The notes beneath the pieces were generated by a model that was not told the origin of the DNA, did not search any database, and saw only the letters and a program-made list of their open reading frames with translations. From NCBI RefSeq assembly GCF_007859655.1, contig NZ_CP042304.1:4156501-4220500 (forward strand): a DNA stretch of 64,000 nucleotides, in the 5' to 3' direction. The translations under genes were made by a program, and so were the position numbers. Source of the DNA: Devosia ginsengisoli (GTDB lineage: Bacteria; Pseudomonadota; Alphaproteobacteria; Rhizobiales; Devosiaceae). Positions 10,530 to 30,974 of the stretch are shown piece after piece (the stretch's first letter is position 1; each line of letters begins with the position of its first letter).

Positions 10530-10601
10530 TTGCGTCGATATCTGTTAGGACTGCCGCTGTCAAGGGTTGAGGAAGCGCCCCGCGCATGGTTGAAGTGTTC
10601 A

Positions 10602-15342: not shown

Positions 15343-15939
15343 ATGCCTAAGTCCAACTCGCGTGTTGAGCGCGAGAATGATGATGTTTGCCTGGCGGAGG
15401 ACAATGTCATCAACCGCCGTACCTTATTTTCAGCCATTGCCGGCATGGGTGTCCTGGCCGCCACTGGGGCCGCGGTGCAGGCCCAGGAAGACGATGGCCC
15501 GGCGCCTGGCGATATCCTGGTCAATTCCAAGGGCGGCGCCGTGCTGACGCCGGCCGATATCGATCCCACGGCCAAGACCGTCGTGATCGCCTATGCCCAG
15601 GATGCTGCCGGCAACGTCAAGAAGGGCAACAAGAACAAGATCGCCGTGGTCAAGGTCGACCCCGCCAATGTCGGCAGCGAGTCCGAGGGCCGCGGCGCGG
15701 ATGGCCTGATGGCCTATTCCGCCATCTGCACCCATGCCGGGTGCGAGGTGAAGTCCTTCCTCCCCGACCGGGGAATCATGCGTTGCCCGTGCCATGGGTC
15801 CGAATTCGATCCGGCCAATAATGGCGTCGTGGAAAAGGGGCCGGCCAAGCATCGGCTGGCCAGCCTGGTGATCGCGGTCGAAGACGACCAGATCGTCATC
15901 AAGGAAGGGTTTGACGCCGAAGTCGGCGCCCAATCGTAA
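15343..15939 (+). CDS. Tat-exported Rieske [2Fe-2S] protein
   Basis: 198 residues. An N-terminal twin-arginine signal is visible (INRRTLF at 23-29, then hydrophobic IAGMGVLAATGAAV and AQA-like cleavage site at about 47). Both Rieske cluster motifs are intact: CTHAGC (Cys129, His131, Cys134) and CPCHGS (Cys148, His151), with the usual two extra Cys for the disulfide. It would carry single electrons in the periplasm. Its stop lies 23 bases before the PQQ dehydrogenase ATG, with no terminator between, so the two are one operon. It resembles small Rieske subunits such as those of arsenite oxidase or bc1 complexes, but neither system is nearby. The most economical idea is that it accepts electrons from the PQQ enzyme. 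Confidence 0.92.
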   Translation: MPKSNSRVERENDDVCLAEDNVINRRTLFSAIAGMGVLAATGAAVQAQEDDGPAPGDILVNSKGGAVLTPADIDPTAKTVVIAYAQDAAGNVKKGNKNKIAVVKVDPANVGSESEGRGADGLMAYSAICTHAGCEVKSFLPDRGIMRCPCHGSEFDPANNGVVEKGPAKHRLASLVIAVEDDQIVIKEGFDAEVGAQS

Positions 15940-15962
15940 AAAAATATTAGTTGGAGGATATT

Positions 15963-17711
15963 ATGCAAGCCAAGCATCTTGGTTTTGTAGCTCTGGCATC
16001 TGTGCTGATGCTGGGCGCTGTTTACGCGCAGGATTCCTTTGGAATCACCGACTACCCCCCGATCACTGAAGACCAGTTGGTCAATCCGGCGCCGGGTGAC
16101 TGGCCCATGTATCGCCGGACCTATGATGGTCAGGGCTATAGCCCGCTCGATCAGATCAACAAGGATAACGTGGCCCAGCTCGTTCCGGCCTGGTCCTATT
16201 CGACCGGCGTCGTGGAAGGCCACGAATCCCCACCGGTCGTGGTCAATGGCGTGATGTTCGTCACCACGCCCGAGCACCATGTGTTTGCGCTCAATGCGGC
16301 CACCGGCCAGCTCTACTGGAAATACACGGCCGACATCACCGAGAACACCAACCCGTCCCACCCCACCAATCGTGGCGTGGCCGTGCTGGGTGACAAGGTG
16401 TTCTATGCCGCCCATGACGCGACGCTCGTGGCGCTCGATGCCAAGACCGGCGAAGAAGTCTGGTCCACCGAAGTCGCCAATGTCGATGAAGCCTACTACA
16501 TGACGCTGGCGCCGCTGGTTGCCGACGGCAAGGTGCTGATCGGCGTCTCGGGCGGTGAATACGGCATCCGCGGCTTCGTGGCCGCTTATGATGCTGAGAC
16601 CGGCGAGGAAGCCTGGAAGACCTACACCATCCCGGCTCCCGATGAGCCGGGTGGCGATACCTGGCCGGCTGGTGCCTATGTGACCGGTGCCGGTTCGACC
16701 TGGTCGACGGGCAACTACGACCCCGAGAGCAAGCTGGTCTATTGGGGCGTCGGCAATGCCGGTCCCTGGATGGGCGACCAGCGCCCTGGCGACAACCTCT
16801 ATACCGCTTCGACCATCGCTCTCGATGTCGAGACCGGTGAGATCAAGGGTCACTTCCAGTACAGCCACAATGAATCGTTCGACTGGGACGAGGTCACGGC
16901 CCCGATCCTGGTGGACCTTCCCAACAAGGATGGCGAAACCGTCAAGGGCCTGGTCAATCCGACCCGCAGCGGCATCCTCTGGGCGCTGGAACGTACGTCG
17001 GAAGGCCCGATCAACTTCATCTGGGGCGAGAAATACGTTCCGGGCGACGTGATCACCGACATCGATGCGGAAACCGGCCGCGTCAGCTATGACGAGAGCA
17101 AGAAGCCGTCCACGGGCACGACCAAGACCTATTGCCCGTCGGTCCATGGCGGTCGCGATTGGCCGTCCACGGCCTATAGCCCCGATACCGGGCTGCTCTA
17201 CATCCCGGCCAACGCCAACATGTGCACCGAACTGACCGGCGCCGAAGTTGAATACGAAGCTGGCCAGCCCTTCATCGGTTTCGACTCGCTGGAATTCCAG
17301 GTTACCGACGATGCCGAATATATCGGTTCGGTCCAGGCTTGGGACGTAGCCACCGGCGAAATGAAGTGGGAGCACAAGTTCCCGCGCTCGGGTAACTGGG
17401 GTCCGATTCTGGCGACCGGCGGCGGCCTGATCTTCTCGGGCGGCACCAATGACCGCATGTTCCGCGCCTATGATGCGGAAAACGGTGATGTGCTGTGGGA
17501 ACAGAAGCTCAACTCCGGCGTCATCGGCACGCCTTCGACCTTCGAGGTCGATGGCAAGCAGTATGTCGCCGTGCAGGCCGGCTACGGCGTTGATGCGGTG
17601 TTCAACAACACCGTGATTGCCGAACACTTCGGCATCAGCTCGGACGTGCCGCAGGGCGGCGTGGTCTGGGTCTTCGAAGTCAAGGACGGCGCCGTCGCTT
17701 CGGCGGAATAA
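15963..17711 (+). CDS. PQQ-dependent alcohol-type dehydrogenase with lanthanide-type metal site
   Basis: 582 residues, periplasmic (Sec signal 1-22, cleavage after VYA). Eight-bladed propeller with repeated tryptophan-docking motifs (LDAKTGEEVW, YDAETGEEAW, WDVATGEMKW). Metal and catalytic residues can be aligned with methanol dehydrogenases: Glu199 in SGGEYGIRG, Asn265 in GNAGPW, catalytic Asp307 and an additional Asp309 in FDWDE. The extra Asp two residues after the catalytic Asp is the mark of lanthanide-dependent XoxF/ExaF/PedH-type enzymes. The usual adjacent Cys-Cys near the PQQ is missing (NPSHPTNRGVA at 130-140), and there is no C-terminal cytochrome domain. GGAGG precedes ATG 15963. 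Substrate unknown; alcohol or aldehyde expected. Confidence 0.93.
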   Translation: MQAKHLGFVALASVLMLGAVYAQDSFGITDYPPITEDQLVNPAPGDWPMYRRTYDGQGYSPLDQINKDNVAQLVPAWSYSTGVVEGHESPPVVVNGVMFVTTPEHHVFALNAATGQLYWKYTADITENTNPSHPTNRGVAVLGDKVFYAAHDATLVALDAKTGEEVWSTEVANVDEAYYMTLAPLVADGKVLIGVSGGEYGIRGFVAAYDAETGEEAWKTYTIPAPDEPGGDTWPAGAYVTGAGSTWSTGNYDPESKLVYWGVGNAGPWMGDQRPGDNLYTASTIALDVETGEIKGHFQYSHNESFDWDEVTAPILVDLPNKDGETVKGLVNPTRSGILWALERTSEGPINFIWGEKYVPGDVITDIDAETGRVSYDESKKPSTGTTKTYCPSVHGGRDWPSTAYSPDTGLLYIPANANMCTELTGAEVEYEAGQPFIGFDSLEFQVTDDAEYIGSVQAWDVATGEMKWEHKFPRSGNWGPILATGGGLIFSGGTNDRMFRAYDAENGDVLWEQKLNSGVIGTPSTFEVDGKQYVAVQAGYGVDAVFNNTVIAEHFGISSDVPQGGVVWVFEVKDGAVASAE

Positions 17712-17714
17712 CGC

Positions 17715-19475
17715 TCATCGCTCCCCGGGACTGGTTCCCGGGGAGCTCTTTTCCGGTGCATTGCACCCCTGGGCGCCTGCGGGCGCACTTTTGTTCAAAG
17801 TCATTGATAGGAGATTCACATGCGCCATACGTCGCACTGGCTGCTCGCTGCCTCCACCGCCGTTCTCGCCGCCCTGTCCACGCCGGCCCATGCCCAGCTC
17901 GCCGAAGCCTGGCGTGCCGAGGGCTACGCCATGCCTGAATCGGTCGTCTATGACGAGGCCGGCGGCGCCATCTACGTCACCAACATCAACAGCCCGGACC
18001 AGTCCTCCAACGGCCAGGGCTATGTGGCCAAGGCCAATCCGGACGGTTCCATCGTCACCGAAAAGTTCACCGACGGCCTCAATGCGCCGCGCGGTATCGA
18101 CTTGGCCAATGGCCGGCTCTACGTGGCCACCAATGGCGAAGTCCTCGAGATCGACGCCACCAGTGGTGAAGTACTTGAGCGCCATGCCGTCGAAAACGGC
18201 CTCTTCAACGACGTGCTCGCTCTGCCCGATGGGCGGGTGCTGGTCACCGAAACCATGAGCGGCTCGATCTATGCCATCGACAATGGCGAGTTCAGCCAGT
18301 GGCTGGCCGATCCGGCGCTGACCGGTGCCAACGGCCTGTTGCTGGTGGATGGTCAGGTGCTCGTCGCCTCGATTGGCGATCTCTCCGGCGGCTTCGAGAA
18401 TATCAAGCCCGGCAATATCAAGTCGGTGAATCTCGAAACCAAGGAAATCACCGATTTCGGTTCGGCTGATCCGCTCGGCAACCTCGATGGTCTGTCGAGC
18501 CTGCCCGACGGCGCCGTGCTGGTGACTGACAATTTCACCGGCGACCTCATCAAGGTCTCGGCCGACGGCACCAGCGAAAAGGTCGGCAATGCCGGTCCGG
18601 GCGCTGCCGATCAGGACAATGTCGGCAATGTCGTCGTCGTGCCGGTGATCCAGTCCAACGCGCTGGTCGCCTTCACCATCGAATAGCGGCTGCAATCGAC
18701 CGACGCGAATTCCAACGGGCGCCGCGCAGGCGCCCGTTTCTTGTGGCAGCGGCCCCAGCTTGGTGCCTTCGAAGAAGCCGTATCGGAACTTGGCGCGGCT
18801 CATATTGGCGCCGCGCAGATCGGCGCCCGAAAACCGCCCCCGTGTCATGTCGGCGGACCACAGATCGACCTGCTGTCCCTTGGCGAAACGCATATCGATA
18901 TCGACCATATTGGCCTGCACGAATCCGGCTCCCGTCGCGATGACGCCATAGAGATTGGCGCCCTGCAAATCTGTATTGCTGAGATTGGCTTCGGTCAGGT
19001 CGGCCCGCTTGAAGTTGACGCCGGCCATGCTGGCGCCCTTGAAATCGGCCCCCGCCGCCTGCGCACCGGGCGCCTGCACCTGCGTGAACCGGCTATGCTG
19101 GAACCGCCCACCGGCAAGGTTGGCCTCGGCGAGATTAGCGGTGGAGAAGTCCGCGCCGAAAGCCAGCACCGCCTCCAGATTTGCCGCCACCAGGCTCGCG
19201 CCCTTGAAATCGGCGCGTGTCAGCGTGGCGCCACCAAGGTCGGCCCCATCGAGATTGGCCTTGCCCAGTTGGGCCGCATGCAGGTTTGCGCCGGTCAGCA
19301 CCGCACCGGCCAGGTTCGCCCCCGCCAGATGCCGCCCCTTGAGATCGGCTCCGGCAAGGTCGCAGCCGGGGCAATCGATGCTTGTTCCATCGAGGAACGC
19401 TGCCACATCCGCCGGCTGGGCCTGCACCCCTCCGGTCAGCAACACACTGATGGCCAGCGCTGCCAGGATTCTCAT
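17715..19475 (-). CDS. Exported pentapeptide-repeat protein with no stop at its natural end
   Basis: A signal peptide (about 1-20, VQAQ) is followed by some 40 tandem A(D/N)LxG-type pentapeptides up to about residue 245 (base 18740), which should fold as a right-handed quadrilateral beta-helix in the periplasm. After KFRYGFFEGTKLGPLP the frame has no stop and continues 1 kb antisense through the propeller gene to 17715. That tail shows no pentapeptides and reads as an antisense shadow, so the genuine protein is probably about 245-250 residues and its stop has been lost by mutation or a base error. A Cys pair near 35-38 (CPGC) starts the repeat. The start overlaps the stop of the PQQ-propeller paralogue (ATGA). 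Confidence 0.7.
   Translation of the reverse strand: MRILAALAISVLLTGGVQAQPADVAAFLDGTSIDCPGCDLAGADLKGRHLAGANLAGAVLTGANLHAAQLGKANLDGADLGGATLTRADFKGASLVAANLEAVLAFGADFSTANLAEANLAGGRFQHSRFTQVQAPGAQAAGADFKGASMAGVNFKRADLTEANLSNTDLQGANLYGVIATGAGFVQANMVDIDMRFAKGQQVDLWSADMTRGRFSGADLRGANMSRAKFRYGFFEGTKLGPLPQETGACAAPVGIRVGRLQPLFDGEGDQRVGLDHRHDDDIADIVLIGSARTGIADLFAGAVGRDLDEVAGEIVSHQHGAVGQARQTIEVAERISRTEIGDFLGFEIHRLDIAGLDILEAAGEIANRGDEHLTIHQQQAVGTGQRRIGQPLAELAIVDGIDRAAHGFGDQHPPIGQSEHVVEEAVFDGMALKYFTTGGVDLEDFAIGGHVEPAIGQVDTARRIEAVGELFGDDGTVRIGLGHIALAVGGLVRAVDVGDVDGAAGLVIDDRFRHGVALGTPGFGELGMGRRGQGGENGGGGSEQPVRRMAHVNLLSMTLNKSAPAGAQGCNAPEKSSPGTSPGER
17720..17752 (+). terminator. Intrinsic terminator after PQQ dehydrogenase
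   Basis: Perfect 11-bp stem GCTCCCCGGGA/TCCCGGGGAGC with a five-base loop, followed by TCTTTT. Starts nine bases after the stop codon. Confidence 0.8.
17820..18686 (+). CDS. Periplasmic SMP-30/NHL-like beta-propeller protein
   Basis: 288 residues with a clear Sec signal (about 1-25, THAQ-like cleavage at AHAQ). Repeated segments such as MPESVVYDEAGGAIYVTN, NAPRGIDLANGRLYVAT, LPDGRVLVTE and LDGLSSLPDGAVLVTDN mark a six-bladed propeller of the SMP-30/gluconolactonase or vitellogenin-like type. The metal ligands of true lactonases cannot be confirmed. It may hydrolyse a lactone made by the dehydrogenase upstream or serve as a binding scaffold. It has its own terminator and lies between the PQQ dehydrogenase and the convergent pentapeptide gene. 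Confidence 0.82.
   Translation: MRHTSHWLLAASTAVLAALSTPAHAQLAEAWRAEGYAMPESVVYDEAGGAIYVTNINSPDQSSNGQGYVAKANPDGSIVTEKFTDGLNAPRGIDLANGRLYVATNGEVLEIDATSGEVLERHAVENGLFNDVLALPDGRVLVTETMSGSIYAIDNGEFSQWLADPALTGANGLLLVDGQVLVASIGDLSGGFENIKPGNIKSVNLETKEITDFGSADPLGNLDGLSSLPDGAVLVTDNFTGDLIKVSADGTSEKVGNAGPGAADQDNVGNVVVVPVIQSNALVAFTIE
18716..18742 (+). terminator. Intrinsic terminator after propeller gene
   Basis: Stem CGGGCGCC/GGCGCCCG with loop GCGCA followed by TTTCTT. The same bases are read on the other strand as codons at the end of the recognisable pentapeptide protein. Confidence 0.7.
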
Positions 19476-21082
19476 GGCTCAACTCCGAATACGGCGAACA
19501 CCGCCAGATGCCGCACGCCCGCCATGTCGCGCGAGTGGAACGAGATGTCGCTATAGAGCGGCCCACCACCCACGATCATGCCGATATATTGCCGTCCATC
19601 CACGCTGTAGCTCATCGGCGGCGCCGCCATGAACGAGGAGACGTGCTGGCTCCACAGCGTATCGAGCGTGGTGTCATCGAGCAGGTGCAGCGAGCCGTCG
19701 GCCGTCATCGCCACCACCAGTCCGCCCGCCGTGGTCAGCAGTCCGCTTTGCAGCGGATAGTCGAACAGATGCTCGGCCATAACAGCGCCATTGGCCGGGT
19801 CGATGGCCGAGAGGGCGCCGGTCGAGGTCGTGCTATGGGCATAAAGCCCACCTTCATCCTCACCCGCCAGATTGCCGATAGCGCTGAGATCGGTCCGGCA
19901 GCCATTGTTCTGCGCGGCATAGAACAGGTTGGTGCGGGTGCTGTAGCTGGCCGGCATATGGTCTTCGGCCAGGATATTGGGACAACCCGGCGGGCTCACG
20001 GCGTCGCCGGTCGAAATGGGCGCGCCGTCGGCGTCGCGTTCGTCATACCAGTCGAGGCCCGTCACATAGGGCTCGGCATAATCGAGCGCGCCACTGGTCA
20101 CGTCGAACCGGCGCACGAAGCCGTCGTCGCCGGCCTGCACGGCGCCACCATCCGGCAGCAGAACCGGCGTCGCCGCATCGCTGAATCCAAGCACATCGCT
20201 GGCCAGCAGCGGCCGCTGCCAGGCAATGGTACCATCCTCCGGATCGACGGCCAGCAGGGCATTGGCGGCATTGTCGCCAGCCCGCAGCGTCTCGCCATAA
20301 GCCGATGCGGGACCATCAGTGCTCCACAGCACCAATCCAGACTCGGCATCATAGGCGCCCGTCCGCAGGATCGAAGCGCCGGCGGTGAACTCGTCCCCGG
20401 TGAGGAAGCTGCGCCATTTGACAGCGCCATCATTGGCGTCGAGCCCGGTCAGTTGCGGCCGTGCGCCCCGATCACCACCGGCGCCACCAATCACCAGTGT
20501 ATCGCCCACCAGCACTGGTGGCGCCGCCAGCACATAGCCGGTTGCCGGGTCTGCCACAGCAGCTTCATGCGTCACCGCGCCCGATTCCCGGTCGATCCAG
20601 AACAGTCGCCCGTCGCCTGCCGCCAGGATGACGGAGTCGCCATGCAGCGTCAGGCTCCACTGGCCGATCAGCCACGGATCCATCTCCTGTTCGAGCCGGG
20701 GCGACGTCCACATGATATGGCCATTGACGCCGCTGGTGACGTCGATCCGGTAGACCATGCCGAACGGATCGACCATATAGGCCATGCCGTCCTCGACTAG
20801 TGGGGCGGACAGCTTTGTATGCTCGAACCCTTCCCCCACCGAGATCGGGCCGAGCGACACGGTGAACAGCAGCTTGACGCGCGCCGCATTCTCGGCGCTG
20901 AGCGCGTCCAGCCCCGAATAGCGCTGAGCACCATAATCACCGGTTCCCATCAGCCAGTTTTGCGGCTCGTCTCCCGTCGCCAGCAGGCGTTCCGGGGTGA
21001 TGGGCGCGGCACTGGCCATCAGCGTGGCCAGAAGTGAGATTGCAAGGCCGCCGAATACGCCTCGCCGCAGCTTGCCGATCAT
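19472..21082 (-). CDS. PQQ-dehydrogenase-like propeller protein, catalytic residues degenerate
   Basis: 536 residues with a Sec signal (about 1-25). Same propeller architecture as the dehydrogenase at 15963 (APPVLVGDTLVIGG, DAESGLVLW, GDNAANALLAVDPEDG, AGGLVVAMT), but the metal/PQQ site has decayed: the Glu position reads GGDRGAR (Asp204), the Asn position reads STDGPASA, and the catalytic Asp position in the FDWD motif reads GFSD (Phe300). It probably cannot do PQQ-Ca or PQQ-Ln chemistry in the usual way. Possible roles are chaperone, cofactor binder or regulatory partner. AAGGAAAA precedes the ATG. In an operon with the pentapeptide gene, divergent from the NitT/TauT-type binding protein. 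Confidence 0.85.
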   Translation of the reverse strand: MIGKLRRGVFGGLAISLLATLMASAAPITPERLLATGDEPQNWLMGTGDYGAQRYSGLDALSAENAARVKLLFTVSLGPISVGEGFEHTKLSAPLVEDGMAYMVDPFGMVYRIDVTSGVNGHIMWTSPRLEQEMDPWLIGQWSLTLHGDSVILAAGDGRLFWIDRESGAVTHEAAVADPATGYVLAAPPVLVGDTLVIGGAGGDRGARPQLTGLDANDGAVKWRSFLTGDEFTAGASILRTGAYDAESGLVLWSTDGPASAYGETLRAGDNAANALLAVDPEDGTIAWQRPLLASDVLGFSDAATPVLLPDGGAVQAGDDGFVRRFDVTSGALDYAEPYVTGLDWYDERDADGAPISTGDAVSPPGCPNILAEDHMPASYSTRTNLFYAAQNNGCRTDLSAIGNLAGEDEGGLYAHSTTSTGALSAIDPANGAVMAEHLFDYPLQSGLLTTAGGLVVAMTADGSLHLLDDTTLDTLWSQHVSSFMAAPPMSYSVDGRQYIGMIVGGGPLYSDISFHSRDMAGVRHLAVFAVFGVEP

Positions 21083-21164
21083 GGCTTTTCCTTCAACTCG
21101 ACCGACTTGCGGCGCAACGTGATACGAGGAAAAACTCTAACCGCCAGAATGTTTTGGGGCAAGG

Positions 21165-21204
21165 CGAGCAGGGCAAACATCCCTGCTCGAAAGGGGAATT
21201 TTTT
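21165..21204 (+). promoter_or_regulatory. Leader hairpin upstream of NitT/TauT-type binding protein
   Basis: Perfect 9-bp stem CGAGCAGGG/CCCTGCTCG with a seven-base loop; nine bases later comes a run of six T (21199-21204). It looks like an attenuator or the expression platform of a leader RNA, but the distance between stem and T-run is longer than usual. Confidence 0.35.
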
Positions 21205-21238
21205 CGGTGCCCCGGGGGAGAGGGACGGCTATATTGTT

Positions 21239-21257
21239 CGCACTAAAAGGGAGTGCG
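21239..21257 (+). promoter_or_regulatory. Small hairpin enclosing the ribosome-binding site
   Basis: CGCACT/AGTGCG stem with the AAAAGGG ribosome-binding site in its loop, ending six bases before ATG 21263. A TATATT at 21230-21235 could be a -10 element. The arrangement could modulate translation of the binding protein. Confidence 0.35.
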
Positions 21258-21262
21258 TACGA

Positions 21263-22270
21263 ATGTTCAAATTCATTGCCAGCCTCGCCATTGCCGCCGT
21301 CCTAGCCGCCCCGGCCGCCGCCGCCCCGTTCCGGCTGATCGTCACCGACCTTGAGCCGCCTCTCGTGCCCAATTCGGTCATGGATCTGGCTTTGTCGCTC
21401 GGCTATTTCGAGCGCGAAGGCGTCGATGTCGAACTGGTGCGCGTACAGCAGACCCCGCTCGCCGTCGTTGCTTTGCAGGCCGGTGAAGGCGAGATGGCCA
21501 ATGTCGGTGTCGATACCGCGCTGCAACTGGTGGCCAGCGGCCAGCTCGACCTGCGCGCCGTGACCTCGCCAAGCAAGTCGCTATTCTTCATGATCGCCGC
21601 GCAGGAAGCGATCGGCGATGTGGCGGCACTCCCCGGCCACAGCTTCGGCATCGGCCGGGTCGGCAGTGTCGATCAAGGGCTGAGCGAGCAGGTGCTGGCC
21701 GCCCAGGGTATCGACATGGCCGCGCTCGACCAAGTTGCCCTCGGCCAACCCGCCGCCCGCGCCCAGGCGCTCGCCGCGGGGCAGATCGATGCCACCACCA
21801 TGTCGCTGGGCACCTGGACTACCCTGCCGGACCAGACAGGCATGCACATCCTCGTAGACCCGGACGCCTATTTCGCCGCGGCGCCCGTCGTCAGCAAGGT
21901 CAATGTCGTGACGCCCCAGGTTCTGACCGAGCGCCGGGACGATGTCGTCGCCGTCGTGACCGCGCTGGTCAAGCTGTCCCGCGATATCGCCGCCGATCCC
22001 GCCATCTGGATCGACGCCATGGGCGCGGCTCGGCCGGACCTTGCCCGCGCGGACTTCGAAAGCCTCGCCGCCGCTTATGCCAAGAGCTGGAGTGTCAATG
22101 GCGGGTTGAGCGCCAGGGAACTGGCCTTCACGGCCGACTGGAACTTCAAGGGCGAAGATTTCGCCGGTCTTGAACCTGTTGGCCTTGATGCCTGGGTGGA
22201 TTTCACCGTGGCCGACGAAGTGCTGGCTGCCCTCGGCACCGCTCCCGATCTGGATCCTGCCGACCGGTGA
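21263..22270 (+). CDS. ABC transporter substrate-binding protein, NitT/TauT (NMT1/THI5-like) type
   Basis: 335 residues; Sec signal about 1-20 (AAPAAAAP). Fold markers of the SsuA/TauA/NMT1 group: SLGYFEREGVDVELVRV, ALQAGEGEMANVGVDTALQL, and LPGHSFGIGRVGSVDQG. Would bind a small organic molecule in the periplasm. Its stop overlaps a GTG start for the ATPase gene (GTGA). The matching permease is on the opposite strand at 23787. Location between PQQ dehydrogenase genes suggests import of something tied to that pathway (substrate, PQQ or a metal complex). Confidence 0.87.
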   Translation: MFKFIASLAIAAVLAAPAAAAPFRLIVTDLEPPLVPNSVMDLALSLGYFEREGVDVELVRVQQTPLAVVALQAGEGEMANVGVDTALQLVASGQLDLRAVTSPSKSLFFMIAAQEAIGDVAALPGHSFGIGRVGSVDQGLSEQVLAAQGIDMAALDQVALGQPAARAQALAAGQIDATTMSLGTWTTLPDQTGMHILVDPDAYFAAAPVVSKVNVVTPQVLTERRDDVVAVVTALVKLSRDIAADPAIWIDAMGAARPDLARADFESLAAAYAKSWSVNGGLSARELAFTADWNFKGEDFAGLEPVGLDAWVDFTVADEVLAALGTAPDLDPADR

Positions 22271-23078
22271 TCGCAAACTCCGCTCCGCAGACCATCGTCC
22301 TCAAGCATGTCGAAAGAGCTTCGGCCGTCCGGGTGGAACCACCACGACGGCCGTGGCCGACTTTTCGCTCGACATCGCGCCGGGCGAATTTGTCACCATT
22401 CTGGGGCCGTCTGGCTGCGGCAAGACCACTTTGCTGCGGCTGGTCAACGGCCTGCTCAAGCCGGACGGTGGCAGCGTCACGGTCGGCGACCGCACGCCCG
22501 TTCCCGGTCCGGATATGGGCTTCGTCTTCCAGTCGTTCCGGCTGATCCCCTGGGCAACGGCGGAGCGCAATGTCGGCTTCGGCCTCGAACTGGCCGGGGT
22601 CGAACCGGTGCGCCGCAAGGAGATCGTGGCGCGCCTGCTCGATCGGGTCGGGCTCGGCCGCTCTGCCAGTGCCTATCCCGCCGAGCTTTCGGGCGGCATG
22701 AAGCAGCGGGTGGCGCTGGCCCGGGCACTGGCCACCGACCCGTCAATCCTGCTGCTCGACGAGCCCTTTGCCAGCCTCGACGCGCAGACCCGCGAGATCA
22801 TGCAACTCGAGCTGCTGCACTTGTGGAGCGAAAGGCGGGCGACCGCACTCTTCGTGACCCATAGTGTGGAAGAGGCCATCCTGCTGGCCGACCGGGTCGT
22901 GGTCATGGGCGCCGCCCCCCATTCCCTGCGCCACATCGTGCCCATCGACCTGCCGCGCCCGCGCCGCGACGAGGTGCGCACCAGTCCCGCTTTCATCGCC
23001 TTGCGCAATGAACTGACCGGCATCATCCGGGCCCTCATCACCGAGGACCCCAATTCGCCCTTCTTCAACCGGGGCTGA
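22267..23078 (+). pseudogene. ABC ATPase, SsuB/TauB type, frameshift near N-terminus
   Basis: ATPase for the NitT/TauT-type importer. Walker A GPSGCGKTT, Q-loop FQSFRLIPW, signature LSGGMKQRVALARAL, Walker B LLLDEPFASLDA and H-loop VTHSVEE are intact. The expected first strand is read from GTG 22267 (NSAPQTIVLKHV) but after base 22311 the frame changes: KSFGRPGG and all later motifs are in the -1 frame, so one base is missing around 22312. In the given sequence no good start codon exists in the main frame except an unlikely ATG at 22170 inside the binding-protein gene. Probably a base error; if real, the transporter is inactive. Confidence 0.82.
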
Positions 23079-23784
23079 CTACCGTCTCGAAGCCCGGCGC
23101 CAATTGTTCGAACCGCGTCATGCTGTCGAAGGCGTCGGGCTGGAAGCGCGTCGTCACCGGGTCGATAAAGCTTTGGCCACGCTTCTGCAGGTAATGCTGG
23201 CCCACGCTGAAGCGGCCGGCCTCGCTTTCAAGACTGCAGTCGGATTTGACGAAATAGGTGCCAACAGGATTTTCACCGGCGGCCGGCTCGCCATTGCTGC
23301 AGGCCCAGCCACTGCCGAAATGGTTGCGCAGCAGGTTGCCCAGCGTCCAGAACTCGTAGCGGGGGCGGCTGGTCTGGTTACCCGGCCGCGGATCGGTAAT
23401 CACGCGCCGGCCCTGCACCAGCCCGTCGTCGTCGATCAGCAGCGAGGCGACCACCGGAAAACCGAATACCACCGTGCCGCCGAACCGCAGCACGTCCCGG
23501 CGCTGTTCGAGCGAGCGGGCGATATATTCCTGCTCGTCGTCATAGCGGAAATAGACTTCATGCAGCCCGCTTTTCTCTGGCCGGCAGGTAGCGAAATCGA
23601 CAAAGCTGGCCAGCCGCCGCGAGGGCGGGCCGCCATTGCTGCCACAGGCCAGGTCGACGAAATCCGCCGTGATCTCACCCACTGGCGTGCCCAGCGGAAT
23701 GTCCCAGATTTCAGCACGCGGCTCGGCGGCTTGCACCGAACCCGCCAGGCAGAATATGGCCGCGATGGCCAGCAGATGTTTCAT
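23065..23784 (-). CDS. Exported protein of unknown function in PQQ-associated operon
   Basis: 239 residues with a Sec signal (about 1-19, VQAA). Four Cys in the mature protein (ACGSNGG, TCRPEK, WACSNG, SDCSLE) could form two disulfides, fitting a periplasmic location. YEFWTLGNLLRNHFGSGW and TRFQPDAFDSMTRFEQL are distinctive but I do not know the family. GGAGG precedes ATG 23784 by seven bases; a TTG at 23790 is an alternative. Last gene of a six-gene operon with the NitT-type and ABC-2-type permeases, so it may be an accessory binding protein. Its 3' end overlaps 14 bases with the convergent ATPase gene. Confidence 0.7.
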   Translation of the reverse strand: MKHLLAIAAIFCLAGSVQAAEPRAEIWDIPLGTPVGEITADFVDLACGSNGGPPSRRLASFVDFATCRPEKSGLHEVYFRYDDEQEYIARSLEQRRDVLRFGGTVVFGFPVVASLLIDDDGLVQGRRVITDPRPGNQTSRPRYEFWTLGNLLRNHFGSGWACSNGEPAAGENPVGTYFVKSDCSLESEAGRFSVGQHYLQKRGQSFIDPVTTRFQPDAFDSMTRFEQLAPGFETVVSPG

Positions 23785-23786
23785 CG

Positions 23787-24551
23787 TCAACCTCCAGTGC
23801 CGATGCGCCAGCGGTCGAGCCGCCGCTCCACCAGCCGCAACAATTCGGCGACCGCAATGCCCAGGCAGGCCAGGATCAGCACCACCACGAAATAGGGCGC
23901 CATGCGGAATGTGTTTCCATAGATTGCCAGCAACCCGCCCAGGCCCTGCACGGCCGTATAAAGTTCGGCGACCACCGTATTGATCAGCCCGATCGTCGCC
24001 CCCAGCCGCAGGCCCACCATGATGAACGGCGCCGCGCCCGGCAGTAGGATCTTGCTGAAAACCTGCCCCGGCCTGGCGCCGGCCGAGCGGGCCATTTCCA
24101 CCAGTTCGGCATCGCCATTGCGCACCCCGGCATAGGTATTGATCAGGATCGGCATGACCGCGCCCAGCGCCACCACGGTGATCTTGGCCCAGAAACCCAG
24201 CCCCAGCAGCACGATGATGAGCGGGATGAAGGCCACGCGCGGCGTCGCCATCAGCGCATTGAAGAACGGGTCGAGCGTGCGCCCCACGACCGGAACACCC
24301 CCGGCTATCAGCCCCATGGGCAAGCCAATGGCAATGGCCAGCAGCAGGCCCGTCACATAAATGCCGAGCGAGCTGGCTGTGGCTTCATAAATGGTGCCGT
24401 CGCCGAACAGCCTTATGGCAGCTTCGAACACCGCCGGCGGTGCAGGGATCAGGTTGCGCCCCGCGACCAGCGAGGCCAGCCACCACACGATGACAAGCGC
24501 CACCACCACCAGCACCCGGTAGAGCCAGATTGGCTGGTTGCCCCGCTCCAT
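23787..24551 (-). CDS. ABC transporter permease, NitT/TauT (SsuC) type
   Basis: 254 residues, about six membrane helices. The EAA-like docking loop is MARSAGARPGQVFSKILLPGAAPFIMVGLRLG with the central conserved Gly. Features such as NLIPAPPAVFEAA after helix 1 and ATPRVAFIPLIIVLLGLG are standard for SsuC/TauC. Partner of the binding protein and ATPase on the plus strand at 21.3-23.1 kb. Its start overlaps the stop of the ABC-2 permease (TAATG). Confidence 0.9.
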   Translation of the reverse strand: MERGNQPIWLYRVLVVVALVIVWWLASLVAGRNLIPAPPAVFEAAIRLFGDGTIYEATASSLGIYVTGLLLAIAIGLPMGLIAGGVPVVGRTLDPFFNALMATPRVAFIPLIIVLLGLGFWAKITVVALGAVMPILINTYAGVRNGDAELVEMARSAGARPGQVFSKILLPGAAPFIMVGLRLGATIGLINTVVAELYTAVQGLGGLLAIYGNTFRMAPYFVVVLILACLGIAVAELLRLVERRLDRWRIGTGG

Positions 24552-25396
24552 TACTCGCGCCCCTTCCGCATCATCTGCCCGCGCTGCGGATCATAGCCGA
24601 ACACGGCCAGCAGGAAGGACAATATCCCCACACCCAGCACCACCAGCAGCGCAACCGCGTTGAACTGGCCATAGGCGGCAAAGCGGATGAGCTCGACGGC
24701 ATGGGTGAAGGGATTGGCCTGCGCCACCCACCACAGAAAGCTGGCGCCGCTCTCGCGCAGCTTCCACAACGGATAGAGCGCACTCGAGCAGAAGAACATC
24801 GGAAAGATCACGAAATTCATCGTGCCGGCAAAGTTTTCCAGCTGCCGTATATAGACCGACAGCACCAGCCCGATCGACCCCAGCATCAGCCCGGTCACCA
24901 GCAGCGCCGGCAGCACGGTGAGCCAGCCGCCAAGCGGAATCTGCACATTGAGCAGCCGCGCGACCACAAGAAACACATAGGCCTGCGCCAGCGACAGCAG
25001 CGTCCCCGCCAGCAGCTTGGCGAACAGCACATACCAGCGCGGCAGCGGTGCCGTCAGCAGCAGGCGCATCATGCCCATTTCCCGGTCATAGACCAGCGAC
25101 AGCGACGACTGCATGCCGTTGAACAGCAGCATCATCCCAAGCAGGCCGGGCAGCATATATTCCTGATAGGTGATGTAGGTGCGATAGGGCGCGATGATCG
25201 ACACGCCCAGCACATTTTGAAATCCAGCCGCCACCACAACGAGCCACAGCGCCGGCCGCACCAGCGCCGAGATCAGCCGGCTCCACTGCCGCACGAACTT
25301 GGTCAGTTCGCGCGTCACGATGGCCTTGAGGGCCACCAGGGCATGCATGGCCGGTCCCAGCCTGGCTGGGCTATCGGCCGGCGCTGCGGAGGCCAT
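24551..25396 (-). CDS. ABC-2 type permease of PQQ-linked alcohol system (PedC-like)
   Basis: 281 residues with six membrane helices and the ABC-2 signature MGMMRLLLTAPLPRWYVLFAKLLAG. Matches what I know of the alcohol ABC transporter permease family (PedC, TIGR03861 type) that sits beside PQQ alcohol dehydrogenases. Pairs with the ATPase at 28129 and the binding protein just upstream. In Pseudomonas putida the related PedA1A2BC transporter is needed for rare-earth-dependent growth; a Lut-like role here is inference. Confidence 0.85.
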   Translation of the reverse strand: MASAAPADSPARLGPAMHALVALKAIVTRELTKFVRQWSRLISALVRPALWLVVVAAGFQNVLGVSIIAPYRTYITYQEYMLPGLLGMMLLFNGMQSSLSLVYDREMGMMRLLLTAPLPRWYVLFAKLLAGTLLSLAQAYVFLVVARLLNVQIPLGGWLTVLPALLVTGLMLGSIGLVLSVYIRQLENFAGTMNFVIFPMFFCSSALYPLWKLRESGASFLWWVAQANPFTHAVELIRFAAYGQFNAVALLVVLGVGILSFLLAVFGYDPQRGQMMRKGRE

Positions 25397-25407
25397 GCAT
25401 CAGTCTC

Positions 25408-26628
25408 CTAGAAGCTGCACTGGGTTTCAGGTGCATCGACACCCAGCGTATCGAGGTCGTTGACCTCGTGCAGGAATTCGGTGAACGGCGCCCTTGCGAT
25501 GACAGCATCGGGTGTCGCCAGCAGCAGCGGCTGGCGCAACTGGTGGTCCCAACTGCGGAAGCTGCCGGGATTGCCCTTGACCGTATCGAGATTGAGCCGG
25601 TCGCGCAGCAGATACTCCCGCAGCGCGTCGAAATCGCCATTCTTGGTGCGCACCACCGCCGAGCCGATGGCTTCCACCGCCACCCAGGCCGCCCAGCCGC
25701 CGCTATTCATGCGATAGGGCAGGGCCTTGTCCTCATAGCGATGCTGCAATTGCGCGCCCGCATCCTGGTCCCAGCTCCAGGTCCAGGCTTCCGGAACCAG
25801 GCCCGCACTGCCCACCACCGGGCGAGGCAGGTTGGTCTGGTAGGGCACATAGCGGCCGATCTCGAAACCGTGGTCGGCAATGAAGACGACATCGTAATCG
25901 ACGCCCTCGGTCATCAGGGCCACATTGCTCTGTTCGCGGGCATTGGGGTCGTTGGTGAGCAGCGCCTGCCGCTCCTCCACGATAGTCAGCCCGAATTTCT
26001 GTGCCGTGCGGCGGAAGGCTTCCACCATCAGCGCATCGTCCGGCTGCGGCCCCTGCAGCACCAGTGCGCGGCGCCAGTTCTTCACCGCCAGATACTGCCC
26101 CAGCGCATCGGTCAGCATGGCCTGGCTGGGATAGGTATGGAGCACATTGGCGCGGCATTGCGCCCCGCGCAGCGCGTCGTCAGGCGCCGAAACATTGATC
26201 AACATCACCGGCTGGCCAGCCAGTGCATCGGCCAGCTCCACCAGGGCATCCGCCGGCAGGTCGGCCACCACGAAGCTGATGCCTTCATCGACCCAGCCGG
26301 CAATGGTGTCGGCCAAGGCCGAAGTCGAATCGGCGCTGGCCTTTTCCAGTGTAAAATCGATGCCGAGTAGGCGCCCGACATCCTGCGCGTCCTCCAGCCC
26401 CACTTCGGCGCCGGTAAAGGGCCGGGCCAGGGTGTAGAACTGGATGCCCGCAAAGGCTCCCGCGGCCGCATAGCGCGGATCGTTGTCGAGTTCGACATAG
26501 CCGATCGTCACCTGCTCGGCCGCTTCCACCTGCGCAGCCGGGGCCGGCTGTGCAGCAATTGGCACGGCGGAGCCGGCCAGCATCGCGGTTGCGATGGCGG
26601 CCAGCCCCCGGCGCAGGGTCCTAGTCAT
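25408..26628 (-). CDS. Substrate-binding protein of PQQ-linked ABC system (PedA-like)
   Basis: 406 residues, Sec signal about 1-26 (AQPA). Periplasmic-binding fold related to branched-chain amino acid binding proteins: TIGYVELDNDPRYAAAG start, then paired domains with SFVVADLPADAL, VMLINVSAPDDALRG, RRALVLQGPQPDDALM and DVVFIADHGFEIGRYVPYQ split over the hinge. Such proteins (TIGR03863 type) occur with PQQ alcohol dehydrogenase clusters. Overlaps the preceding propeller gene by eight bases; 11 bases before the permease gene. Confidence 0.87.
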   Translation of the reverse strand: MTRTLRRGLAAIATAMLAGSAVPIAAQPAPAAQVEAAEQVTIGYVELDNDPRYAAAGAFAGIQFYTLARPFTGAEVGLEDAQDVGRLLGIDFTLEKASADSTSALADTIAGWVDEGISFVVADLPADALVELADALAGQPVMLINVSAPDDALRGAQCRANVLHTYPSQAMLTDALGQYLAVKNWRRALVLQGPQPDDALMVEAFRRTAQKFGLTIVEERQALLTNDPNAREQSNVALMTEGVDYDVVFIADHGFEIGRYVPYQTNLPRPVVGSAGLVPEAWTWSWDQDAGAQLQHRYEDKALPYRMNSGGWAAWVAVEAIGSAVVRTKNGDFDALREYLLRDRLNLDTVKGNPGSFRSWDHQLRQPLLLATPDAVIARAPFTEFLHEVNDLDTLGVDAPETQCSF

Positions 26629-27610
26629 CGATCACCACCGAATGCGGGATGCGCCCGACCGGCAGGGTCAGCACATTGGTCCGCGATTCCATGTCGACGA
26701 TGGACAGGTCGTCGCTGAGGCCGTTGGCCACATAGAGCGTCTTGTCGTCGCGCGAAATGTCGGTGCCCCAGGCGCGGCTGCCCACCAGCACATAGGTCTC
26801 GATTTCGCGCGTCGCGATATCGACGAAAGCCACGTGGTTGGCGCGGCCAAGTCCCACTATGGCGGTCTTGCCGTCATGGGTCATCGACATGCCGACCGGC
26901 GTCACATCGACCGCCCGGAAACCGGGGGGCAGGAATTCCAGCGTCTCGGCAACCTCGAACGTGTTGAGGTCGATGATCGAGACCGTGCCCGACAGCTCGT
27001 TGGACACCCAGATCTCGGTGTCGCTGGGCTGGATGAAGCGGCGCGGGCGGGTTTCCACCAGCACATTCTCCATCACCACGCCTTCTTCGGCATCGATCAC
27101 ATGCACCATGTCCGCCACTTCGGACGTGGCATAGAGCGTCTTGCCGTCGGCGCTGAGCGCGATGCCCTCGGGCTCGGCCCCGGTGGGTACCTCGAACATG
27201 ATCGCCTTGCTGGCCACGTCGATGACCTGCACCGTCGAGGTTTCCTCGTTGGACACATAGATCAGCGCGTCATCGTGGCTGAGCCTGAACATTTCCGGGC
27301 TTCGCCCGGTGGGGATATTGTCCACCACTTCGAGCTTGGCCACGTCGATCACCTGGATCACGTCGTCGTCGCCGCACGCCACATAGAGCAGCGTGTGGCC
27401 CTGGTTAAAGCTCATGTCGCGCGGCCGTCCGGCCGTGGCGATGAGCTTGATGATCGTATTGTCCTTGGCCGGGTCGATCACCGCGATATTGTTCGAGCGT
27501 TCATTGCTGACGAAGACCAGCCCGGTATCGACCGCCGCCGCCGGCAAAACGCCCGCAATACCCAGCAACGCCCCGAGCAAGGCCGGCACTATTTTGCGCA
27601 AATGTGTCAT
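26621..27610 (-). CDS. Exported YVTN-type beta-propeller of PQQ-linked system
   Basis: 329 residues, Sec signal about 1-26. Regular repeats of the form VSNERSNNIAVID, YVACGDDDVIQVIDV, YVSNEETSTVQVIDV, YATSEVADMVHVID, WVSNELSGTVSIID and YVANGLSDDLSIVD build a seven-bladed propeller. It corresponds to the PQQ-catabolism-associated propeller family (TIGR03866 type). Proposed roles in such clusters are metal or cofactor handling; no catalytic motif is visible. Confidence 0.88.
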   Translation of the reverse strand: MTHLRKIVPALLGALLGIAGVLPAAAVDTGLVFVSNERSNNIAVIDPAKDNTIIKLIATAGRPRDMSFNQGHTLLYVACGDDDVIQVIDVAKLEVVDNIPTGRSPEMFRLSHDDALIYVSNEETSTVQVIDVASKAIMFEVPTGAEPEGIALSADGKTLYATSEVADMVHVIDAEEGVVMENVLVETRPRRFIQPSDTEIWVSNELSGTVSIIDLNTFEVAETLEFLPPGFRAVDVTPVGMSMTHDGKTAIVGLGRANHVAFVDIATREIETYVLVGSRAWGTDISRDDKTLYVANGLSDDLSIVDMESRTNVLTLPVGRIPHSVVIDD

Positions 27611-27620
27611 GGCGCTGGCC

Positions 27621-28046
27621 TTAGCGGACCACGAAGGTGCCGGTCATGCCGCGGCTCTCGAAGCCGGGGGCGCTGAATTCGTAATTGCCGGGCAGCAGCG
27701 GCACGAAGAAGATGTCGGCCCCGCCCTCATCGTCGAATTCCACACCATAGATGGCACCGAGCGGCTTCACCTCGATATCGTTGATCACCACCTGGTTGAT
27801 CCACGAGGCGCGCCAAAGTTCGGGCGCGTTCACGCGGAACTCTTCCAAGCCGTCGCTCTCGATGCGCCACTTGTAATATTTGCCGGTTTCCAGCGTGTAT
27901 TCGGTCACCGAAAAGGTGAGGTCCGCCCCGCTCATCACCAGCGGCTCAAGCTCGGTGGGCTGGGAGGCGAAATTGCCTTCGGCCTGCGCTGCCGACAGGG
28001 TCAGGCAAAGGGCGGAGGCGGCGAAAAAAGCTCTAGCGGCAAACAT
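27621..28046 (-). CDS. Exported cupredoxin-like protein lacking copper ligands
   Basis: 141 residues; signal peptide 1-22 (AQAE). The mature part has a beta-barrel pattern ending in FFVPLLPGNYEFSAPGFESRGMTGTFVV, which parallels the C-terminal loop of cupredoxins (PGxYxFxCxxHxxxGMxGxxxV), but the Cys and both His are replaced (SAPGFESRGM). No Cys or His remains in the mature protein, so it cannot bind type 1 copper. The acidic ELEP and FDDEGGAD segments could bind a hard metal such as Ca or a lanthanide (inference). First gene of the six-gene operon. Confidence 0.8.
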   Translation of the reverse strand: MFAARAFFAASALCLTLSAAQAEGNFASQPTELEPLVMSGADLTFSVTEYTLETGKYYKWRIESDGLEEFRVNAPELWRASWINQVVINDIEVKPLGAIYGVEFDDEGGADIFFVPLLPGNYEFSAPGFESRGMTGTFVVR

Positions 28047-28064
28047 TTAAAGTATCCTTGCAAC

Positions 28065-28110
28065 GGTATGGTGTCGTTCGATATCACCTGTGTATAGTGA
28101 CATCCATACC
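28065..28110. promoter_or_regulatory. Interrupted inverted repeat in divergent promoter
   Basis: GGTATGGTGTC at 28065-28075 is mirrored by GACATCCATACC at 28099-28110, with one extra base; a smaller TCAC/GTGA pair lies between. It occupies most of the 82-bp gap between the cupredoxin-like gene (minus) and the ATPase gene (plus), so one regulator may control both halves of the transporter. Confidence 0.45.
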
Positions 28111-28128
28111 AGTTCCGTCAACGTGATA

Positions 28129-28896
28129 ATGCCCCTATCGACCCACCCAAAAGTCGTATCCGACCCTTTGCTGCAGGCCAGCGATGTTGCCAAGGCCTAT
28201 GATGGCAAGCCGGCGCTGAACGGGGTGGATATCGCCGTCCGTGCCGGCGAACTCGTCGTGCTGCTGGGCCCGAACGGGGCGGGTAAATCCACCTTGCTGC
28301 AGCTGATTACCGGCCTCTTCACGCCCGATCGCGGCAGCATCGCGATCTGCGGCCACGACCTGCGTTCCGGAATCGTCCCGGCGCTCGCCCAACTCGGCGT
28401 GGTGTTCCAGCAGCCCACCCTCGATCTGGAATTGTCGGTCGAGGCCAATTTGCGCTTCCATGCCGAATTGCACGGCCTGCCCGGCAATCAGGTCCGCACG
28501 CGGATTGCCGCCGCCGCCGAACGGTTCGGATTGACCGATCGCCTGCACTCCCCGGCCCGCGAACTGTCCGGCGGCAATCGCCGCCGCGTCGAGCTGGCCC
28601 GCGCCTTGCTGCATGAGCCGCGCCTGCTGGTGATGGATGAAGCCACCGTGGGGCTCGATCCGGCCAGCCGGCGCGACATCCTCAGCCATATCCTGTCGCT
28701 GCGCGCCGCCGGGATGGGCATATTGTGGACCACCCATCTGGTCGATGAGGCCGCCATGGGCGATGCCATCGTGGTGTTGAATCGGGGCAATGTGGTTTTC
28801 GAAGGCGCCCCCGCCGAACTGGCTGCGCGCAGCCAGCCCGCCGATCTCGGCAACGCCTTCCTCCGCTTGACGGCGGATACCGACGCCGCGGCCTAG
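28129..28896 (+). CDS. ATPase of PQQ-linked ABC-2 system (PedB-like)
   Basis: 255 residues. Walker A GPNGAGKST (47-55), Q-loop FQQPTLDLELSV, signature LSGGNRRRVELARAL, Walker B LLVMDEATVGLDP and H-loop WTTHLVDE. The sequence type fits the PQQ-dependent alcohol system ATPases (TIGR03864 type) and pairs with the ABC-2 permease at 24551. ATG 28129 is used; an in-frame GTG at 28090 lies within the inverted repeat region. Divergent from the permease operon. Confidence 0.87.
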   Translation: MPLSTHPKVVSDPLLQASDVAKAYDGKPALNGVDIAVRAGELVVLLGPNGAGKSTLLQLITGLFTPDRGSIAICGHDLRSGIVPALAQLGVVFQQPTLDLELSVEANLRFHAELHGLPGNQVRTRIAAAAERFGLTDRLHSPARELSGGNRRRVELARALLHEPRLLVMDEATVGLDPASRRDILSHILSLRAAGMGILWTTHLVDEAAMGDAIVVLNRGNVVFEGAPAELAARSQPADLGNAFLRLTADTDAAA

Positions 28897-29828: not shown

Positions 29829-29864
29829 GGTGGGTCTCGGGACGGAAAGATGAAGCGCATGAAA

Positions 29865-29892
29865 TTTCGGCGCCCCGGAAAGGGCGCCGAAA
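29865..29892 (-). terminator. Terminator between the two binding-protein genes
   Basis: Perfect 11-bp stem TTTCGGCGCCC/GGGCGCCGAAA with a six-base loop; on the minus strand it lies eight bases after the stop of the upstream binding-protein gene and is followed by TTTCAT. Confidence 0.65.
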
Positions 29893-29899
29893 GCTGGGC

Positions 29900-30820: not shown

Positions 30821-30884
30821 TGCAACCTCGTAACTTGACAGGAAGGGTCAGAAAATGGTTTGGGCAAACAGTCAGAATTTATTG

Positions 30885-30899
30885 TGACTGTCAACATCA
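30885..30899. promoter_or_regulatory. TGA-N9-TCA element (possible iron-rhodo-box)
   Basis: TGA at 30885-30887 and TCA at 30897-30899 are separated by nine bases, the pattern described for RirA-linked iron-rhodo-boxes in alphaproteobacteria. It lies between the divergent binding-protein and permease genes. The motif has low information, so the call rests on the iron context. Confidence 0.35.
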
Positions 30900-30974
30900 A
30901 CTTATCTGGGGCTCGTCCTGTCCACCGCCGCACTCGCTGCCGCCCCACCTGTCGGTGTTCCAAGGCGCCTGCTA

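Follow-up and report, generated by a model that had tools for sequence, protein, structure and literature searches.

A Rieske protein gene recurrently paired with pyrroloquinoline quinone alcohol dehydrogenase genes in a ped-like cluster of Devosia ginsengisoli and in distant bacteria

Periplasmic alcohol dehydrogenases that depend on pyrroloquinoline quinone (PQQ) are thought to be cytochrome c-dependent, haem-fused or membrane-bound, and the XoxF/MxaF methanol dehydrogenases partner cytochrome cL. The Rieske subunit of the bc1 complex takes an electron and a proton from ubiquinol, and arsenite oxidase AioAB provides the precedent of a Rieske subunit working with a periplasmic oxidase. Here, we describe a locus of Devosia ginsengisoli in which the gene of a Rieske protein directly precedes that of a PQQ alcohol dehydrogenase, within a larger cluster that resembles the ped cluster of Pseudomonas putida. 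The locus lies in a stretch of 64,000 nucleotides (the window) at positions 4156501-4220500 of the host genome, which is a single contig of 4.48 Mb. Papers are cited by PMC number from the portions of their text that were available to us. The published ped cluster comprises the same ATP-binding cassette (ABC) genes, a pentapeptide gene and the gene of cytochrome c550, PedF (PMC12997753); the names of the ped ABC genes follow PMC12997753 and PMC6839425, and the Lut ABC genes are similar to PedA1A2BC (PMC6839425). In published work, a vicinal disulfide has been linked to electron transfer to cytochrome c550.

We found that the cluster is better described as a conserved Rieske/PQQ dehydrogenase pair with a ped-like accessory set than as the self-contained oxidation module of a preliminary description. 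Genes were called by Pfam and NCBIfam profile scans against curated cut-offs together with translation, and the genes named in that description were all present at about the places it gave, with three corrections. The Rieske [2Fe-2S] protein (15343-15939, plus strand; PF00355, 41.8 bits against a cut-off of 20.3) is the first of the pair and has a twin-Arg (Tat-type) signal, with export predicted. The alcohol dehydrogenase (15963-17711) follows on the same strand after a gap of 23 bases and was identified by alignments to solved enzymes, by the ligand table described below and by its match to TIGR03075, the family of PQQ-dependent methanol/ethanol dehydrogenases (556.2 bits against a cut-off of 480.05). 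It shares 98% identity with a dehydrogenase recorded under the name Devosia ginsengisoli.

The structure of the metal site was read from alignments to the chains of 6zcv and 4mae, which place E199, N265 and D307 at the metal and D309, the second Asp of a DWD motif, at the position of the lanthanide Asp. We take these residues to be the metal ligands, which is in part stated by PMC8561711. With a second Asp two residues past the catalytic one, the enzyme is predicted to be of the lanthanide type, as had been proposed. The ligand table was built from 64 frames of more than 150 bits, 36 rows of which belong to the group of the window enzyme as defined by score (35 genes, that of genome G237 being entered twice, with the window enzyme as an addition). 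The Glu, Asn and Asp ligands were kept in all 36 rows; 24 rows have the second Asp, like the window, and 12 have an Ala in its place (calcium type). In genome G267 (L160), one Asp-type and one Ala-type PQQ dehydrogenase stand in tandem behind one Rieske gene. The group differs from other enzymes in the vicinal Cys-Cys, which was found in none of the 36 proteobacterial group rows, nor in the window enzyme, and is replaced by H-x-T-(N/S)-R-G in every one of them (SHPTNRG in the window). The His of this motif, residue 133 of the window enzyme, was invariant in the enzymes of all 34 pairs selected as both genes on one strand no more than 300 bases apart. Cys-Cys was present in 19 of the 20 other rows with E-N-D-D ligands, and six rows with different ligands lack it; the last two of the 64 frames are a dead paralogue and a fragment. 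Of the two features of a classical type I quinoprotein alcohol dehydrogenase, Cys-Cys and an adjoining cytochrome c gene, the first is absent from the window enzyme and the second was not found among the 16 window genes checked. An assignment to the deoxynivalenol dehydrogenases of the Devosia type was dropped, as the solved chain 7wmd, which presumably represents that group, ranked well below others (2.5e-76 against 6e-96). The host genome also encodes a second, distant PQQ-propeller protein (38%) at G000:C1:2317992-2319593, with S-Q-D-D at the ligand positions.

In all 34 pairs the Rieske partner has the twin Arg, two Cys and two His ligands and two further invariant Cys, and the motif CxHxxC...CxCHxS is invariant with its Ser included. 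The disulfide Cys and the Ser of CxCHxS mark high-potential Rieske proteins, and the window protein, in which CxHxxC...CxCH, the disulfide Cys and the Ser are all found, is predicted to be one of them. Its best-scoring solved relative was 3fou (7e-22), the Rieske subunit of a quinol-cytochrome c reductase that we take to be from Thermus. It was rejected as a bc1 Rieske subunit (TIGR01416, 36.2 bits against a cut-off of 97.4) and as an arsenite oxidase small subunit (TIGR02694, 44.5 bits against 95.65). Elsewhere in the host genome there is a second, weak Rieske match of 24 bits. The haem motif CxxCH was found in none of the 16 window genes checked. A same-strand CxxCH frame within 3.5 kb was found at 3 of 31 group loci (L028, L110 and L159) against 6 of 11 others, a count obtained by a motif scan of open frames rather than from annotation, with shorter flanks for the 11 others.

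The pairing of the two genes recurs widely. From the Rieske side, named genome contigs were scanned with an alignment of the window protein and 21 of its 75 matches, and the best 80 loci were considered. Seven of them have a PQQ dehydrogenase of the group alongside, namely L027 in Neptuniibacter, L028 in Acetobacteraceae, L029 in Chenggangzhangella methanolivorans, L031 in Pseudoalteromonas arabiensis, L034 in a gammaproteobacterium, L035 in Azoarcus indigens and L036 in a proteobacterium. At the remaining 73, no PQQ dehydrogenase was found in the flanking DNA examined; we regard these as distant Rieske proteins because most match the query over the cluster region only. The pair was also present in all six of the plasmid records picked for inspection from 29 with a Rieske match, by annotation in Roseomonas marmotae, Paracoccus yeei, Alteromonas macleodii, Azoarcus KH32C and Paracoccus Arc7-R13, and by profile scan in Methylobacterium aquaticum.

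Because a start from the Rieske side is biased, searches from the dehydrogenase side were added. An order sample of 297 genomes contained 109 with a match at E <= 1e-60, and one locus was taken from each of the 30 best (L113-L142). A gap in the scores (E 8e-145 to 3e-112) divides these into 19 loci, including the window, and 11 others. Some of the genomes also have a second copy; these copies score up to 4e-120 and carry the Cys-Cys. With flanks of 1.5 kb, a Rieske gene was found at 17 of the 19 group loci and at none of the 11 others, and at L130 (G267), which is a tandem copy, the partner copy adjoins the Rieske gene. A phylum sample of 398 genomes contained 12 with a group member, nine of which were already in the earlier samples; the three new members were all paired, and none of seven loci of other kinds was. 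Additionally, 199 genomes of Acidobacteriota, the phylum of G688 (the genome of L030), yielded 13 with a match at E <= 1e-140; the His motif was readable in 12, and 10 of the 13 were Rieske-paired. When the three samples were pooled, 30 of 35 genomes were directly paired (31 with the tandem) against 0 of 18 other PQQ dehydrogenase loci, for which Fisher's test gives p 5e-10, a guide only since the genomes are related and independence is overstated. Chance adjacency was rejected on the basis of this recurrence. Seven PQQ-propeller frames outside the group, six of the Cys-Cys kind and one dead paralogue, lie 1.3-8.3 kb from a Rieske gene because they share their locus with a pair (L028, L029, L145 and L153-L156). 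Within the genus, a close Rieske protein was found in just 2 of 37 genomes, the host included, which makes the module an accessory trait.

An IQ-TREE tree of 61 rows, covering the set without the Acidobacteriota enzymes, was rooted at its midpoint and has some long branches. The 35 Rieske-paired enzymes lie together with one unpaired enzyme, that of G264, on one side of a branch supported at 98/96, and a subgroup supported at 100/99 unites the window enzyme with those of G014, G276 and G237.

We also observed some peculiarities at individual loci. L030 carries an orphan Rieske relative (9989-10546) in its acidobacterial genome, with no PQQ dehydrogenase in the 20 kb examined and with the pair on another contig. 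The dehydrogenase of Chenggangzhangella methanolivorans (L029, 10158-12229) matches in two frames and seems interrupted. L028 (2251-7732) presents in a row a Cys-Cys-type PQQ dehydrogenase, a CxxCH protein, a relative of the window protein that we call CysX, the Rieske protein and a His-type PQQ dehydrogenase. An aldehyde dehydrogenase gene, aldA, is annotated in four of the five annotated plasmid regions (L108, L109, L111 and L112) and not in that of Roseomonas.

Taken at sequence level, these results suggest that the cluster probably encodes a ped-like system for alcohol oxidation with PQQ and a lanthanide, one whose acceptor is a dedicated Rieske protein rather than cytochrome c550/cL; electrons are likely to pass from the reduced cofactor, PQQH2, to the Rieske cluster. 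The Rieske protein would receive its cluster in the cytoplasm before export by the Tat route, while the dehydrogenase would be exported as an apoprotein and take up PQQ and a lanthanide. The PedA1A2BC-type genes would handle lanthanide uptake, and PQQ would be scavenged, as we propose because PQQ biosynthesis genes were not found. Oxidation of the substrate, an alcohol or aldehyde, would leave PQQH2, which a docked Rieske protein would reoxidise; the latter would then reduce a periplasmic carrier of the respiratory chain. What the sequences show is the pair of genes with its conservation and its clade, the changed motif, the ligands of the metal, the families of the ABC proteins and the lack of a pqqC match; export, the loading with metal and PQQ, the substrate and the direction and route of the electrons are what we infer from the genes. 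The preliminary description had held that oxidation, metal uptake and a new electron-acceptor arrangement are united here. The genes do co-occur. For the new electron acceptor, gene context gives good support and extends the idea beyond what was proposed; the whole set, with its Ssu and Fec genes, is not conserved. More tentatively, the pairs may form a widespread quinoprotein class in which Rieske chemistry is applied to a protein-bound quinol, the exposed His ligands of the cluster taking an electron and a proton from PQQH2, as the bc1 Rieske subunit does from ubiquinol, with the invariant His133 as a relay where other enzymes have the vicinal disulfide. It is conceivable, with the same reserve, that one type of partner thereby serves calcium- and lanthanide-type enzymes alike, even those in tandem in G267.

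In favour of the main reading, the pairwise distances among the Rieske proteins also correlate with those among the dehydrogenases (r 0.71, n = 34; 0.37, n = 20 after dereplication; each above all 5000 permutations), though with no control for host relatedness. Several observations weigh against a Rieske protein as the dedicated acceptor. Four of the 35 genomes have no neighbouring Rieske gene. In G264, whose enzyme is unpaired, the only Rieske match in the whole genome is a weak one of 31.8 bits, and with this enzyme inside the group the pairing label needs two changes on a tree with a midpoint root and long branches. At three Acidobacteriota loci, no Rieske gene was found within about 20 kb of the enzyme gene; two of these enzymes keep the His, so the link between this residue and a Rieske partner is not strict, and the Acidobacteriota enzymes were placed by score, not by tree. 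The calcium-type subgroup, 12 of the 36 rows, is Rieske-paired as well, which shows that a Rieske partner is not confined to enzymes of the lanthanide type. At most of the loci compared, no ABC genes adjoin the pair. Finally, the electrons could be accepted by a cytochrome c whose gene lies at a distance from the pair.

This last point leads to a rival explanation, in which the Rieske protein has an accessory role in maturation, assembly or protection, and the electrons go to a periplasmic cytochrome c encoded at an unlinked site, as with other PQQ alcohol dehydrogenases. Group members without a neighbouring Rieske gene favour it, as another acceptor must work there, and in the ped system the partner described is cytochrome c550 (PMC12997753). 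However, all 34 pairs keep the redox ligands unchanged, which would be unexpected for a dispensable cluster, and none of the 36 rows has the Cys-Cys that is associated with transfer to cytochrome c550; we consider the accessory role rather unlikely. It is more improbable still that the electrons take another route, with the Rieske protein linking the dehydrogenase to an additional partner such as the quinone pool or a molybdenum hydroxylase. On the Roseomonas plasmid, the pair is indeed followed by (2Fe-2S)-binding and molybdopterin-binding proteins, but no such partner is annotated in the four other annotated plasmid regions, where aldA is found instead. Finally, the window could hold an ordinary ped/lut-type lanthanide cluster beside an unrelated Rieske gene, given that its PedA1A2BC-type genes exceed the NCBIfam cut-offs and that a close Rieske protein is rare in the genus; the adjacency recurs with either gene first, across alpha-, beta- and gammaproteobacteria and in a second phylum, which makes this explanation barely credible.

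If the Rieske protein does act as the acceptor, the large Rieske-paired group adds a new acceptor class and the missing disulfide is explained. The pairing would also offer a gene-context marker for enzymes annotated merely as "methanol/ethanol family" and a route to testing uncharacterised type 6a enzymes, lanthanide-type members included. The recurrence of the pair in distant bacteria points to an electron route that we did not find described: among the open-licence papers listed, and in the portions of text available to us, no paper was found that joins a Rieske protein to a PQQ dehydrogenase, although an earlier mention is possible.

Around the pair, the wider module was compared with other genomes. 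A tightly packed run on the minus strand, from 28046 to 23065, encodes the cupredoxin-like protein, PedA2, PedA1, PedC, SsuC and CysX. It includes a PedC-type ABC-2 permease (24551-25396; TIGR03861, 378.7 bits against 241.35), a PedA1-type periplasmic binding protein (25408-26628; TIGR03863, 420.4 bits against 413.6) and a PedA2-type YVTN beta-propeller (26621-27610; TIGR03866, 306.5 bits against 287.3). The PedB-type ABC ATPase (28090-28896, plus strand; TIGR03864, 304.6 bits against 302.25) diverges from this run. All four models, which we take to be those covering the ped ABC genes, were thus matched over their cut-offs, and together with an Ssu/Tau-like set, whose ATPase was recognised by translation, they make up the two ABC systems that had been noted. 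The window PedC is the only TIGR03861 match over the cut-off in the host genome; PedC was over the cut-off in 22 of 23 genomes searched, and because calcium-type genomes carry it too, its presence does not separate the metal types.

Synteny in relatives, on which the earlier proposal had been made to depend, was observed. In G276 (L145), a member of the same family and another genus, ten module genes are contiguous with identities of 37-69%, in the order PedB, cupredoxin-like protein, PedA2, PedA1, PedC, Rieske protein, PQQ dehydrogenase, dead propeller, CysX and pentapeptide protein, a run that indicates more than a chance grouping of genes. In G276, too, the dead propeller is without its ligands. 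In G237 the order is Rieske protein, PQQ dehydrogenase, dead propeller, CysX and pentapeptide protein, with PedC far off, and the unpaired enzyme of G264 (L158) has distant relatives (30-40%) of the four Ped genes beside it. In the close relative G014, all 19 window genes compared were present in order, and among the loci compared only this genome has the whole set with the Ssu-like ABC, ScyE and Fec genes. Scattered relatives do occur near the pair elsewhere (ScyE-like in L027, SsuB-like in L147, SsuB- and SsuC-like in L150, FecC- and FecE-like in L159).

The module does not appear to be self-contained, a possibility raised in the preliminary description, given that the Ssu and Fec sets are not conserved and that genes for PQQ supply are missing from the searches. 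By profile search, pqqC was over the cut-off in 17 of the 20 enzyme-carrying genomes searched and was not found in the host (G000), G014 and G276; no pqqE match in the host genome exceeded the cut-off, the best reaching 50 bits against 381. In agreement with this, a Devosia strain has been described whose transformation of deoxynivalenol requires added PQQ (PMC8779532). The importer PqqU is reported to be largely absent from Alphaproteobacteria (PMC12124388).

CysX (23065-23784, minus strand) had been described as an unknown Cys-rich exported protein. Profile scans against Pfam and NCBIfam assigned it to no family. A signal peptide is likely, and beyond it the protein has just four Cys, which are invariant in 45 of 45 aligned sequences. 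It has 436 homologues, and a Pfam domain was found in none of 120 among those listed. Neither CxxC nor a haem motif is present in CysX, and a cytochrome role was rejected for lack of the latter. Its AlphaFold2 model has a mean pLDDT (predicted local distance difference test) score of 90. It is conserved in L145, L146 and L028, where the Acetobacteraceae relative (29% identity) lies ahead of the Rieske gene.

The remaining genes of the module largely agreed with the earlier assignments. A ScyD/ScyE-like NHL-type beta-propeller (17820-18686, plus strand), identified by NCBIfam and Pfam scans under the family cut-off and with a 32% relative near the pair in L027, is one of two further propellers, the other being PedA2. 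The dead PQQ-propeller paralogue (19472-21082, minus strand; Pfam, NCBIfam and ligand table) has D-G-G-S at the positions of E-N-D-D in the enzyme and recurs in L145 and L146. The pentapeptide-repeat protein is present (PF00805, 146 bits for the long open reading frame), but the frame listed for it, 17715-19475, is too long: after the last repeat it continues for about 340 codons on the strand opposite the ScyE-like gene. Since the frame of G014 stops right after the repeats, where the window is two bases shorter, the gene is placed at about 18741-19475 on the minus strand; it was also found in L145 and L146. The cupredoxin-like protein (27621-28046, minus strand) had been called ligand-free; it has no His and its sole Cys, residue 14, lies in the likely signal peptide, so a copper site is absent and a copper function was rejected. 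Its fold was tentatively assigned by a Pfam match below the cut-off (E 0.11), and a homologue of 62% identity stands in the same order in L145. The second ABC set consists of an NMT1/SsuA-like substrate-binding protein (21263-22270, plus strand; Pfam and NCBIfam), whose sole counterpart beside a pair, across the loci compared, is in G014, an SsuB-like ATPase with an uncertain start (22314-23078, plus strand; translation, and tblastn in L143 of G014) and an SsuC-like permease (23787-24551, minus strand; PF00528). The SsuC-like permease of L143 (12938-13698) matches in two overlapping pieces, and its frame seems interrupted. A terminator-like hairpin of 11 pairs followed by TCTTTT (17720-17746, plus strand; consensus scan) lies 3' of the Rieske/PQQ dehydrogenase unit, such sites numbering 7 in the region against a shuffle mean of 9.0, which is not above shuffles. 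One sigma-70-like promoter was found, below shuffles. No inverted repeats of at least 12 bases were found in three intergenic regions, and no tRNAs in the window.

Metal uptake genes of the FecB-FecB-FecC-FecD type directly follow the module (28913-33776), as in G014; the gene at 32961-33776 was called FecE by position only. FecBCDE was considered as part of the module and rejected, since the full set adjoins it in the window and in G014 only, and L159 has single FecC- and FecE-like matches. The FecB-like gene at 28913-29695 (minus strand) has no evident signal peptide and stands alongside a complete paralogue (29900-30820); it looks like a duplicate whose N-terminus was lost or shifted. Further on, an FdhD-type protein and a molybdopterin oxidoreductase lie side by side (41481-44626, minus strand).

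Among described enzymes, a close comparison is with Adh4 and Adh6 of Methylobacterium aquaticum 22A, PQQ-dependent alcohol dehydrogenases (PQQ-ADH) of type 6a that bear plasmid locus tags and are called uncharacterised (PMC7356819). Strains of 22A that retain just adh4 or just adh6 have been published (PMC7356819). Plasmid pMaq22A_1p encodes two PQQ dehydrogenases at E <= 1e-60, one of the lanthanide and one of the calcium type; both have the His motif of the group, each with its own Rieske neighbour, and they belong to the group by motif and score, one of them (L110) also by the tree. From their count and replicon we infer that they are Adh4 and Adh6, and the group may overlap PQQ-ADH type 6a of the Keltjens classification. 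According to a survey (PMC8561711), the Cys-Cys is retained in group 7 of the Methylobacteriaceae (type 6a), minor members apart, a statement that the two 22A loci do not fit. The word "Rieske" is absent from the main text of PMC7356819 and PMC8561711.

As for whole systems, the ped cluster of P. putida shares with the window a PQQ alcohol dehydrogenase, homologues of PedA1, PedA2, PedB and PedC and a pentapeptide protein, that of the window being a possible counterpart of PedD (PMC12997753). Unlike the ped cluster, the window has a Rieske gene before the enzyme, no haem motif in the genes checked and no Cys-Cys, an extra dead propeller, CysX and a cupredoxin-like gene, and pqqC and a pqqE over the cut-off were not found. 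The Lut cluster of Methylorubrum extorquens AM1 likewise has ABC genes, for lanthanide import (PMC7391723); it also has a TonB-dependent receptor, of which none was recognised among the window module genes scanned, and no Rieske gene is listed in the available portions of its descriptions (PMC7391723, PMC6839425). The XoxF/MxaF methanol dehydrogenases belong to a common sequence family with the window enzyme and have the same E-N-D ligands, XoxF also the second Asp; in the window, by contrast, no haem gene was found beside the enzyme and Cys-Cys is replaced. Arsenite oxidase AioAB, a periplasmic oxidase with a different class of cofactor, is similar in having a Rieske subunit, and it differs in that the window Rieske protein scores below the TIGR02694 cut-off and has as its partner a PQQ propeller, not a molybdenum enzyme.

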